Source: Faecalicoccus pleomorphus DSM 20574
GTDB lineage: Bacteria > Bacillota_I > Bacilli_A > Erysipelotrichales > Erysipelotrichaceae
Length of the DNA stretch: 64,000 nucleotides
NCBI RefSeq assembly: GCF_000420345.1
Contig: NZ_ATUT01000001.1
Location: forward strand, 186,001 to 250,000
Direction of reading: 5' to 3'
Of the stretch, positions 45,718 to 47,846 are shown one piece after another. Positions within the stretch are counted from its first letter, which is position 1. The number at the start of each line of letters is the position of its first letter. A program made the position numbers and the translations under genes. The notes beneath the pieces are model-generated. The model was not told where the DNA came from. It was given only the letters and a program-made list of their open reading frames with translations, and ran no database searches.

Positions 45718-45925
45718 TAAAAAAAACGTCCCTATCTCTAGGAACGTTATCAACGCGGTACCATCCTAGTTCGTCTTCCTGTTGGAAAACGCCCTTAATT
45801 CTTCTTTAACGCAGAATACGGCTTCACTCCAAAGTAGCTTCAAAGAGTCTTATTGTAAGGCTTGCACCAAACGCCTTATCTCTAACTGTCCAAATTCTCT
45901 TCTACTCATCTTTTTCATCATCAAG
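45718..45925 (-). promoter_or_regulatory. T-box riboswitch of alaS
   Basis: The minus strand carries the T-box sequence AGGATGGTACCGCG (45767-45754), then a terminator stem AACGTTCCTA / TAGGGACGTT with a T-run (45748-45718). Upstream, GAGTAG near 45910 can pair with CTACTT near 45815 to close stem I, with an AGAGAA loop-E-like motif on its 5' side. The 3' side reads GAAGCTAC, giving a GCU (alanine) specifier. Uncharged tRNA-Ala would favour the antiterminator and raise alaS expression. Confidence 0.9.
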
Positions 45926-45935
45926 CTCTCAAATT

Positions 45936-47240
45936 CTAGCATTCTTTTAAGATTTTGACAAGTAACTTCAACCCTTCCTGCAGACGATCTCTATCTAAAT
46001 ACGCAAAAGAAACGTTCAGACGATCTTTTGCCGGTGTATCGATACCGATTCCTTTTTCTTCACAAGTCTTTATGATCGCAAAGACATCACAATGTGAAAT
46101 ATCGATCTGATAGCTAAAATACGCCTCCTGCAAAAGGACGGAAAAACCTGCGGAAGAAAGAAGATCATACGTGATCTGCTCTTTTTTCGCATATTCTCTT
46201 TTTAACTTACGCACATGTTTTTCCAAATATCCATTGGCGATATATCTTGCCAGTACCAGCTGTTCCAGCTTGGAAGCGGTCGGTCCAAATGAATCTTTAA
46301 ACTGTTGATAAGCATGTTGATACTTTGTGTTTAAGATCATATAGCTTAGACGTAAAGATGGCAATAAGAGTCTTGAAAAGGAACTGAAATAGATCACATT
46401 ATCCATGACACTGGCGGATTGTAAAGCCTGTCTGGGCTTGGAATGATAGGTTAATTCCCCATTATAATCATCTTCCAGAATTAAAAAGTTATTATCATAG
46501 GATAGCTGTAGAATCATATCCCGCATAGAATTCGAAAGTGGTGCAAAATCCCGTCCAAAACAGGCCGTATTGATATATAAGATATCAATATCCAGTAAAG
46601 ATAATTCCTCTATATATCTTTCTTTGGATAAAAAATGACAATCAAACCCAAAAGATGTAAACACATGGTTGACTTCTTTGGATACACCCTCTTCCATCGC
46701 AATCGAAATCGGTTTTTCCAACAGTGAACAAAAATCAAACAACAACGATTGAAATCCGGATCCTACTAAAATCTGAGCACCGGTCGCCAAGATTCCTCGA
46801 TTATGATAAGCATACTCACTAAGGGCAGTCCGTAATTCTTGTTCGCCTTGTTTATCTCCATACGTAGAAATCAATGGTGTATCTTGAAATACATCCTTCA
46901 TATATCGTTTCCAGACTCGTAGGTCAAAGCTATCCTGGCTGACGGCATGGCTTCTAAAATCATATAAGTATTGTTTCGGTATGTCTGAATTTGAAGCCTG
47001 TGCTATGATTTGTTGGCGATGAAGCTGATAAGGCTTGATATCAACAATAAATCCTTTTTGTGCCTCACTGATAATATAACCATCCAATACTAATTGTTCA
47101 TAACCTCTTTCAATGCTCGTTTTTGAAAAGCCAAAGATCTCCACACTTTTACGAATACTGGGAAGTGTATCTCCGTATTTTAAATATCCTTTTTTGATAT
47201 CCTCTACAAATTTGTTATAGACCTGCATATATCGTTTCAT
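45936..47240 (-). CDS. MocR/PdxR-type GntR regulator with aminotransferase-like domain
   Basis: A 434-residue protein: a GntR winged helix at the N-terminus (GYLKYGDTLPSIRKSVEIFGFSKTSIERGYEQL, about 18-50), then a fold-type I aminotransferase-like domain. The domain keeps ILVGSGFQSLL and LILEDDYNGELTY (Asp257/258 region). The Schiff-base lysine expected in SFSK is Arg290 (SSFSRLLLPSLRLSYM), and the TPxHQxPxG motif is degraded (TACFGRDFAPLS). It may therefore bind no PLP covalently. It is divergent from an ECF S component. AGAGGA site. Confidence 0.82.
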   Translation of the reverse strand: MKRYMQVYNKFVEDIKKGYLKYGDTLPSIRKSVEIFGFSKTSIERGYEQLVLDGYIISEAQKGFIVDIKPYQLHRQQIIAQASNSDIPKQYLYDFRSHAVSQDSFDLRVWKRYMKDVFQDTPLISTYGDKQGEQELRTALSEYAYHNRGILATGAQILVGSGFQSLLFDFCSLLEKPISIAMEEGVSKEVNHVFTSFGFDCHFLSKERYIEELSLLDIDILYINTACFGRDFAPLSNSMRDMILQLSYDNNFLILEDDYNGELTYHSKPRQALQSASVMDNVIYFSSFSRLLLPSLRLSYMILNTKYQHAYQQFKDSFGPTASKLEQLVLARYIANGYLEKHVRKLKREYAKKEQITYDLLSSAGFSVLLQEAYFSYQIDISHCDVFAIIKTCEEKGIGIDTPAKDRLNVSFAYLDRDRLQEGLKLLVKILKEC

Positions 47241-47330
47241 AAACTGTCCTCTTAAAATTTAACATAATTGTATATTTTATAAAAGACACTTTATTCGTAA
47301 AATAGAGACAAAGAAAGGAATGAGATAGAT

Positions 47331-47846
47331 ATGAAAACAAACAAACAAATTCAACAAATTGTGCTCAGCGCCTTAGGAATTGCCATTGTATTTGTCGCAA
47401 CAATCTCGATTCGTATTCCCAATGCGATGCAGGGATATGTCAATATGGGTGATGGATTTATCCTTTTATTTGCTTCTATTTTAAATCCCGGTTTATCATT
47501 TCTTGTCGGGGGGTTAGGTAGTGGTCTGGCTGACGTGACCGGAGGTTATGGATACTACTTTATTTTCACTCTGATCATTAAAGGGCTGGAAGGTTTTATC
47601 GTTGCGTATCTGTTACAAAAAAATGATAGGCCGATGTATCGCATACTTTGGTACCTGATTGGCTCTATGATCATGATCGGTGGTTATTTTCTAGCCGATT
47701 CAATTATCAACCAAAGTGTATGGTTAGGTCTTGCCAGTGTATGGGGTAACTTATTTCAGGCTGCCATGGGATTTCTGGTTGCGATCGTTGGCTACCCTCT
47801 TTTATCAAAACTTCATATGGTATCTTCTGAAAAAGCCACACATTAA
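47331..47846 (+). CDS. ECF transporter S component, possibly for vitamin B6
   Basis: A 171-residue membrane protein with five or six helices. The motif region NMGDGFILLFASILNPGLSFLVGGLGSGLADVTGGYGYY is typical of PF07155-type S components, which bind a vitamin and dock on a shared EcfA/A'/T module. No ATPase or T gene is near, as is usual for group II ECF systems. Divergence from a MocR-type regulator suggests pyridoxine or a relative, because PdxR-like regulators govern B6 genes; that is inference. AAGGAATGAG site. Confidence 0.78.
   Translation: MKTNKQIQQIVLSALGIAIVFVATISIRIPNAMQGYVNMGDGFILLFASILNPGLSFLVGGLGSGLADVTGGYGYYFIFTLIIKGLEGFIVAYLLQKNDRPMYRILWYLIGSMIMIGGYFLADSIINQSVWLGLASVWGNLFQAAMGFLVAIVGYPLLSKLHMVSSEKATH

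Follow-up and report, generated by a model that had tools for sequence, protein, structure and literature searches.

MocR regulators have been described as PLP-dependent proteins that act through a conserved lysine. The lysine is stated for all MocR-like regulators in a passage of PMC2018728, and, in the sections cited here, it is conserved in every cluster of a set of 1331 domains (PMC6677901) and in 278 EnuR proteins (PMC8739950). Our literature search, covering open-licence papers, found no report of a MocR protein that naturally lacks it. The 64,000-nucleotide stretch of Faecalicoccus pleomorphus DSM 20574 analyzed here (the window) carries a MocR gene in which, according to the original prediction, the PLP lysine is replaced by arginine (SFSR, Arg290). 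We were particularly interested in whether this arginine is kept among relatives, and in what such a regulator could still sense.

The gene (45936-47240, minus strand, ATG start) encodes a 434 aa protein whose MocR architecture was established from the open reading frame, Pfam, phmmer against GabR, an AlphaFold2 model and fold comparison. Both domains of the MocR/GabR family are present, namely an N-terminal GntR-type winged helix-turn-helix (wHTH; residues 4-66, 47043-47231, minus strand; PF00392, 35 bits, cut-off 27) and, downstream of it, a C-terminal fold-type-I aminotransferase-like domain (PF00155 Aminotran_1_2, 37.4 bits, cut-off 19.7), but the aldimine lysine is not. The AlphaFold2 model (alignment of 56 sequences) had a pLDDT of 93.9 and a pTM of 0.83. 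Its closest solved folds were Bacillus subtilis GabR (4n0b/5t4j; Z 40.0, rmsd 2.2 over 344 residues, matching model residues 90-434) and Bacillus clausii PdxR (7pq9/7zla/7zn5; VIA-align Z 38.9, rmsd 2.2 over 346 residues). The regulator also resembles PdxR, including that of the Streptococcus pdxR-pdxKU system, in architecture and divergon layout, and its best NCBIfam model is PdxR (NF052282). Unlike PdxR, it has no Schiff-base lysine, its score of 267.1 bits lies below the curated cut-off of 320, and its partner genes are an ECF transporter S component and mnmA. An Arg-type relative in genome G199 scores 359 with the same model and passes its cut-off; annotation names follow the PLP-dependent description. 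In its own genome, the regulator was the only full-length match to itself, the second match being a 72-residue stretch of 28% identity. The confident model, the likeness to GabR and PdxR and the retention of the arginine in the subclade (below) indicate a protein that does not look decayed. A T-box was also noted between the MocR gene and alaS (45737-45927, minus strand), just upstream of alaS and on the same strand as it.

Residue equivalences were taken from the phmmer alignment to GabR 4n0b. The PLP-binding Lys312 of GabR aligned with Arg290, encoded by AGA (46371-46373, minus strand), confirming the predicted replacement. Four residues of GabR were kept, Asp279 as Asp257, Tyr281 as Tyr259, Arg319 as Arg297 (46350-46352, minus strand) and Phe250 as Phe228. 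In contrast, Tyr205 was replaced by Ser187, Arg207 by Glu189 and His248 by Cys227. The equivalents of Asp279 and Arg319 are described in part of PMC6917764 as contacting the pyridine nitrogen and phosphate of PLP, respectively. The PSHQF loop of GabR (around 246-250) reads T-A-C-gap-F in the regulator, in agreement with the claim that the nearby substrate loop is eroded. The acidic segment and the wHTH, which had been called intact, are indeed present; the segment EDDYNGEL (residues 256-263, 46452-46475, minus strand, including Asp257 and Tyr259) is not that of GabR, which reads EDDYDSEF, but the mark of a subfamily. This subfamily was found in Erysipelotrichales and Clostridia among the best 80 of 207 relatives, and E256, D257, D258, N260, G261, E262 and L263 were invariant in an alignment of 24 sequences.

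The distribution of Arg290 was followed in two sets of relatives. Among 272 genomes of the GTDB family, 92 had a match at E 1e-20 or better, and 94 of the 95 matches were used, one of two copies in genome G142 being dropped; L077, the same protein as L076, was also left out. L076 and L077, two copies of an Arg-type MocR gene in G142, lie about 114 kb apart and adjoin an aminotransferase-like gene, not an S component. A scan of named genomes, seeded with EDD[HY]NGEL and a second motif, placed the nearest kin of the regulator in Faecalicoccus among the best 80 of 207 relatives. We then built a tree from 86 rows, 3 of them outgroups, by a quick method with column 290 excluded. The 83 EDDYNGEL-subfamily rows comprised 21 with Arg and 62 with Lys, and 20 of the 21 Arg rows fell within one 22-row, mainly Erysipelotrichaceae clade (fork support 91), the exceptions in it with Lys being L082 and G174. 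The nested groups around the regulator were all Arg (16/16, support 90; 12/12, support 100). This clustering of Arg in one clade is more than chance. The one Arg row outside, L104:4953-6272, is a MurD-type MocR of Ruminococcus from a single goat-rumen metagenome genome and represents a separate Lys-to-Arg change. As to whether Arg is fixed across the lineage, a check that had been proposed, the Faecalicoccus/Holdemanella/Merdibacter part is all Arg, but nearby Erysipelotrichaceae groups have Lys, as does G174, which groups with Longicatena.

Within the GTDB family, the 27 EDD[YH]NGEL proteins divided into 18 with Arg and 9 with Lys. The Arg was written with all six codons (AGA 8, CGA 3, CGT 3, CGC 2, CGG 1, AGG 1), and its persistence through synonymous change is not expected of a position drifting after the loss of its role. 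Five pairs of Arg proteins gave paired dN and dS values of 0.127 and 2.25, 0.130 and 0.76, 0.258 and 2.71, 0.030 and 0.34, and 0.025 and 0.58 (dS above 1 being near saturation), and a sixth pair yielded no dS. Judged from these sequences, the retention of Arg in the surrounding clade looks selected. Isolates with Arg290 include Faecalicoccus acidiformans DSM 26963, Holdemanella biformis DSM 3989, Longicatena caecimuris DSM 29481 and Merdibacter massiliensis.

The Lys-type relatives have neighbors of their own. A set of clostridial MocRs with EDDYNGEL and Lys faces an operon that encodes a MurD-like ligase, two M42 peptidases and a GNAT protein (L097, L098, L101, L102, L109-L111, L120, L121, L127-L129, L133, L142, L143 and L147; identities read in L097 and L091, the others assigned by clustering), and a Met_gamma_lyase-family PLP enzyme also belongs to this operon where it was read (L091). 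For the Thomasclavelia-type EDDHNGEL MocRs with Lys (L095, L099, L107, L123, L124 and L126), the divergent gene encodes the cysteine synthase CysK, a PLP enzyme (read in L095, the others by clustering).

The PLP lysine has changed repeatedly among the MocR proteins examined. In the 94 family proteins, Lys was found in 48 and another residue in 46; the tree required 15 changes, of which starred branches force at least 8. With 61 proteins from the wider class added, the 155 MocRs comprised 95 with Lys and 60 without, with 20 changes, at least 11 of them forced by well-supported branches; these counts include both directions, gain and loss being inseparable on the tree. The class set is a non-random sample, in which 62 of 93 listed places were read (30 as returned, 32 hand-picked) and L256 was dropped as a duplicate of a family row. 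Fourteen of its 61 proteins had R, T, S, H, E or N in place of the lysine (L282, L287, L289-L291, L294-L296, L299, L300, L303-L305 and L314), and 6 of the 14 had a detected S component. One protein of this set, L289, is an Arg protein facing pdxS. Two full-length proteins had Ile at 290 (L196, L218).

A second lineage in the same family consists of 44 MocRs shorter than 420 aa, 42 of them of about 350-375 aa (L187-L194, L198-L202, L204, L205, L211, L213, L214, L216, L220, L221, L224-L233, L235-L243 and L245-L248). Their match to the query stops near residue 350-365, indicating that they lack the end of the aminotransferase-like domain. Position 290 was K in 18, R in 14, Q in 3, N, T, E and V in 2 each, and M in 1. 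A divergent S-component match was found beside 13 of the 44, three of these matches lying in short ORFs or fragments (70 to 107 aa, or close to that), and in some loci a PfkB kinase follows the S component. The remaining short proteins face a PfkB kinase, pyridoxamine kinase, ABC exporter, VanY, beta-eliminating lyase, DUF6056 or other varied genes; pyridoxamine kinase over the curated cut-off of NF005491 faces two of them (G162, G165).

The contacts of the pocket were conserved in spite of the absent lysine. Asp257 and Arg297 were each found in 46 of the 46 Lys-less family proteins, in which 16 of 434 columns were fully conserved, 8 of them, including these two, in the aminotransferase-like domain. 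Among all 60 Lys-less proteins, Asp was present in 59 and Arg in 57, with Lys in 2 others, and the long-branch row L303 was the only one with neither Asp nor an Arg/Lys contact. Glu256, Tyr284 and Phe288 were just as invariant in the 46 proteins, so structure alone could account for this conservation. Two further differences separated the 20 Arg rows of the clade from the Lys rows. Residues 160-164, which we take to be the phosphate-cup loop of the fold, read [GA][SAP][SNG][FYV]Q in the Arg rows, where many Lys rows have GAGTQ. Pro occupied position 320 in 20/20 Arg rows versus 8/62 Lys rows. The 8 Lys rows with Pro320 come from nearby Erysipelotrichaceae and have similar loops at 160-164, suggesting that both changes may predate the loss of the lysine.

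The probable target of the regulator is the divergent gene for a 171 aa ECF transporter S component (47331-47846, plus strand; PF07155, 105.8 bits), possibly a B6 vitamer importer. The two start codons are 90 bp apart (47241-47330); the S component is followed by mnmA, and neither pdxST nor pdxK adjoins the regulator. No GABA genes adjoin it either, in contrast to GabR. The only PDB sequence match of the S component at E up to 1 was 4hzu_S (E 1.7e-14), the Lactobacillus brevis HmpT/PdxU2, for which pyridoxamine is identified as substrate in a passage of PMC4860826. PdxU and PdxU2 are placed in PF07155, and Erysipelotrichia among the groups lacking both B6 synthesis routes, in a section of PMC9997740. 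PdxS was found in 10 of the 272 family genomes, and not in the regulator's own genome. A script detected an S component beside 14 of the 18 family Arg proteins, and a fifteenth (G006) was masked by an overlong ORF call. Among the full-length family MocRs, pdxS-pdxT is faced by six, each with Lys (identity read in L058, the others by clustering), and pdxS lies beside 30 of the 155 MocRs examined.

Lysine loss also occurs outside S-component loci, the neighbors of the 60 Lys-less proteins being an S component in 29, a PfkB kinase in 3, pdxS in 1 and none of these in 27. Of the MocRs beside an S component, 29/60 lacked Lys, versus 1/30 of those beside pdxST (Fisher p 9e-6), but the tree offers only about 4 independent pairs, with the trait differing in about 1, so the association may reflect no more than kinship, and neighbor type as the determinant of lysine loss was rejected. 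Protein length, short versus full, was likewise rejected as a driver (3 pairs, no signal). Pyridoxamine kinase was absent from 14/18 Arg versus 3/9 Lys genomes of the EDD[YH]NGEL group, a pattern that follows clades.

A putative operator of 45 bp, CTGT-N20-YTGT-N14-ACA, lies between the divergent genes at 47244-47288 and recurs in relatives. In its own genome, the window copy was the only exact match of a stricter pattern; looser matches, allowing two or three mismatches, were no more frequent than for the reversed control (22 versus 27 in all). In a scan of 153 of the 155 loci, two without upstream sequence being omitted, the pattern was present, where an S component was detected, in 14 of the 29 Lys-less loci versus 1 of the 31 Lys loci. 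None of the 30 pdxS loci and none of the 63 others had it. Shuffling gave an expectation of 0.02 or less per class, which does not cover the choice of a pattern read off the sequences by eye. Among EDD[YH]NGEL proteins of the family that have an S component, it stood beside 12/14 Arg versus 1/7 Lys proteins, and the two remaining Lys-less hits came from the class set (L305 with Arg; L282, a distant row, with Thr). By eye, the Lys loci showed only variants of the pattern, and it was absent from all short-lineage loci. Being restricted mainly to Arg loci, this element is not general. The commonest MocR motif structure, according to a part of PMC5320631, is two direct boxes plus an inverted one.

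Taken together, the arginine kept by relatives and the adjoining likely B6 importer suggest that the regulator probably senses B6 without a covalent bond. Our reading, to which we give about an even chance, is that it is a working MocR regulator of B6 salvage, in a divergon with a probable B6-vitamer S component, that would read a phosphorylated B6 vitamer or a close analogue without forming an aldimine. The dimer would bind the 45-bp element, repress its own gene and switch the S-component gene according to the B6 state of the cell, probably activating it in B6 shortage, much as PdxR does; PdxR is described as activating pdxKU in group A Streptococcus in an excerpt of PMC11619246. Candidate ligands are PLP, PNP, PMP and close analogues. 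Asp257 and Arg297, probably together with Arg290, would hold the ligand with no Schiff base, and Arg290 could hydrogen-bond the ring O3', the 4' group or the phosphate. In that case the response would be to reversible binding and not necessarily restricted to the aldehyde form. Laboratory mutants without the PLP lysine behave otherwise. EnuR Lys302His had no PLP incorporation and was a constitutive repressor, and MpaR Lys314Ala had no activity, as given in passages of PMC8739950 and PMC10790758. Such loss-of-function mutants indicate that losing the lysine can simply break the sensor, so a natural change would call for compensation or a different response; the change found here, unlike theirs, is natural, retained in a clade and repeated. 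Aspartate aminotransferase tolerates a Lys-to-Arg change, with PLP or PMP bound non-covalently.

It is possible, though on balance unlikely, that the pocket has been re-purposed and the regulator senses the substrate of the S component, a micronutrient other than B6. PF07155 is named for riboflavin, and NCBIfam gave the S component no B6 name, its best model being TIGR04002, of unstated function, at 50.3 against a cut-off of 120. Six conserved pocket residues of PdxU2/HmpT are given in part of PMC4860826 as E41, H84, Q87, Y120, N140 and Q143. At these positions, the window S component reads DKEYNQ versus EHQYNQ in HmpT; Y120, N140 and Q143 are kept, while E41, H84 and Q87 are D, K and E, so its substrate may differ from that of HmpT. 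G174, which has Lys at 290, shows the same S-component pocket type. The own genome showed neither a PF08543 kinase over the cut-off (two weak matches) nor the pyridoxamine kinase NF005491, and the route from an imported vitamer to PLP is thus not visible; a kinase gap of such kind is already known, since 'missing PdxK?' is the entry for 114 B6-auxotrophic gut genomes in a section of PMC6593275. In the regulator itself, the ring-stacking Tyr205 and the carboxylate ligand Arg207 of GabR are replaced. Against a ligand other than B6, the contacts of GabR to the pyridine nitrogen and phosphate are retained, related MocRs adjoin pdxST, pyridoxamine kinase or S components, and H84, Q87, Y120 and Q143 of HmpT are kept in 11 of the 12 short-lineage S components read, the twelfth being a fragment.

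A dead sensor, in which the regulator would no longer bind a ligand and would constitutively activate the transporter and repress itself, is improbable. In the account of PMC5320631, as far as cited here, apo-PdxR is the activating form and PLP an anti-activator, so a PdxR without the lysine could be locked on. This state would suit a B6 auxotroph, and the scrambling of position 290 in the short lineage (R, N, Q, T, E, V and M beside K) would agree with it. In the clade of the regulator, however, the position is held as Arg rather than free, and the pocket anchors and the domain are conserved. The original prediction had offered another ligand, non-covalent PLP binding or constitutive action; with Asp257 and Arg297 invariant, a PF07155 partner and a putative operator, the evidence leans to a non-covalent B6-type ligand, and a purely constitutive protein is less likely because the Arg itself is held.

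Covalent binding of PLP through another lysine, such as K324, is more doubtful still. K324 is Lys in 19 of 20 Arg290 proteins but equally in 61 of 62 Lys290 proteins, indicating no compensation, and the position is Arg in one Faecalicoccus Arg290 protein (L034/L069). In nineteen columns, at least 10 of the 20 Arg rows had Lys. At six of these columns, Lys was clearly less frequent in the 62 Lys rows, namely 2, 3 and 10, in the wHTH, and 176 (14 versus 7), 268 (10 versus 11) and 347 (15 versus 4, with Arg in 58), and none of the six was invariant in the Arg rows. The search for a replacement lysine by alignment, as had been proposed, thus brought out no good candidate. A sequencing error or pseudogene, for which nothing was found in favor, is ruled out for practical purposes by Arg in the genomes of isolates, the open frame, the confident fold and the codons.

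Beyond this locus, the non-covalent B6 reading may extend to a wider group, which we put forward tentatively and with somewhat less than even confidence. In B6-salvaging Bacilli, MocR regulators often standing beside ECF S components would have lost the aldimine lysine many times, Arg being the commonest replacement, and would now sense a B6 vitamer that binds reversibly and non-covalently, a second lineage having also lost the end of the aminotransferase-like domain; the lysine would then be dispensable for the whole group. The natural recurrence of the replacement, and its retention within a clade, suggest that the family can persist without the covalent step. The natural set of proteins with Lys, Arg and other residues beside the same kind of gene could show whether PdxR-type sensing needs the aldimine or only a non-covalent fit.
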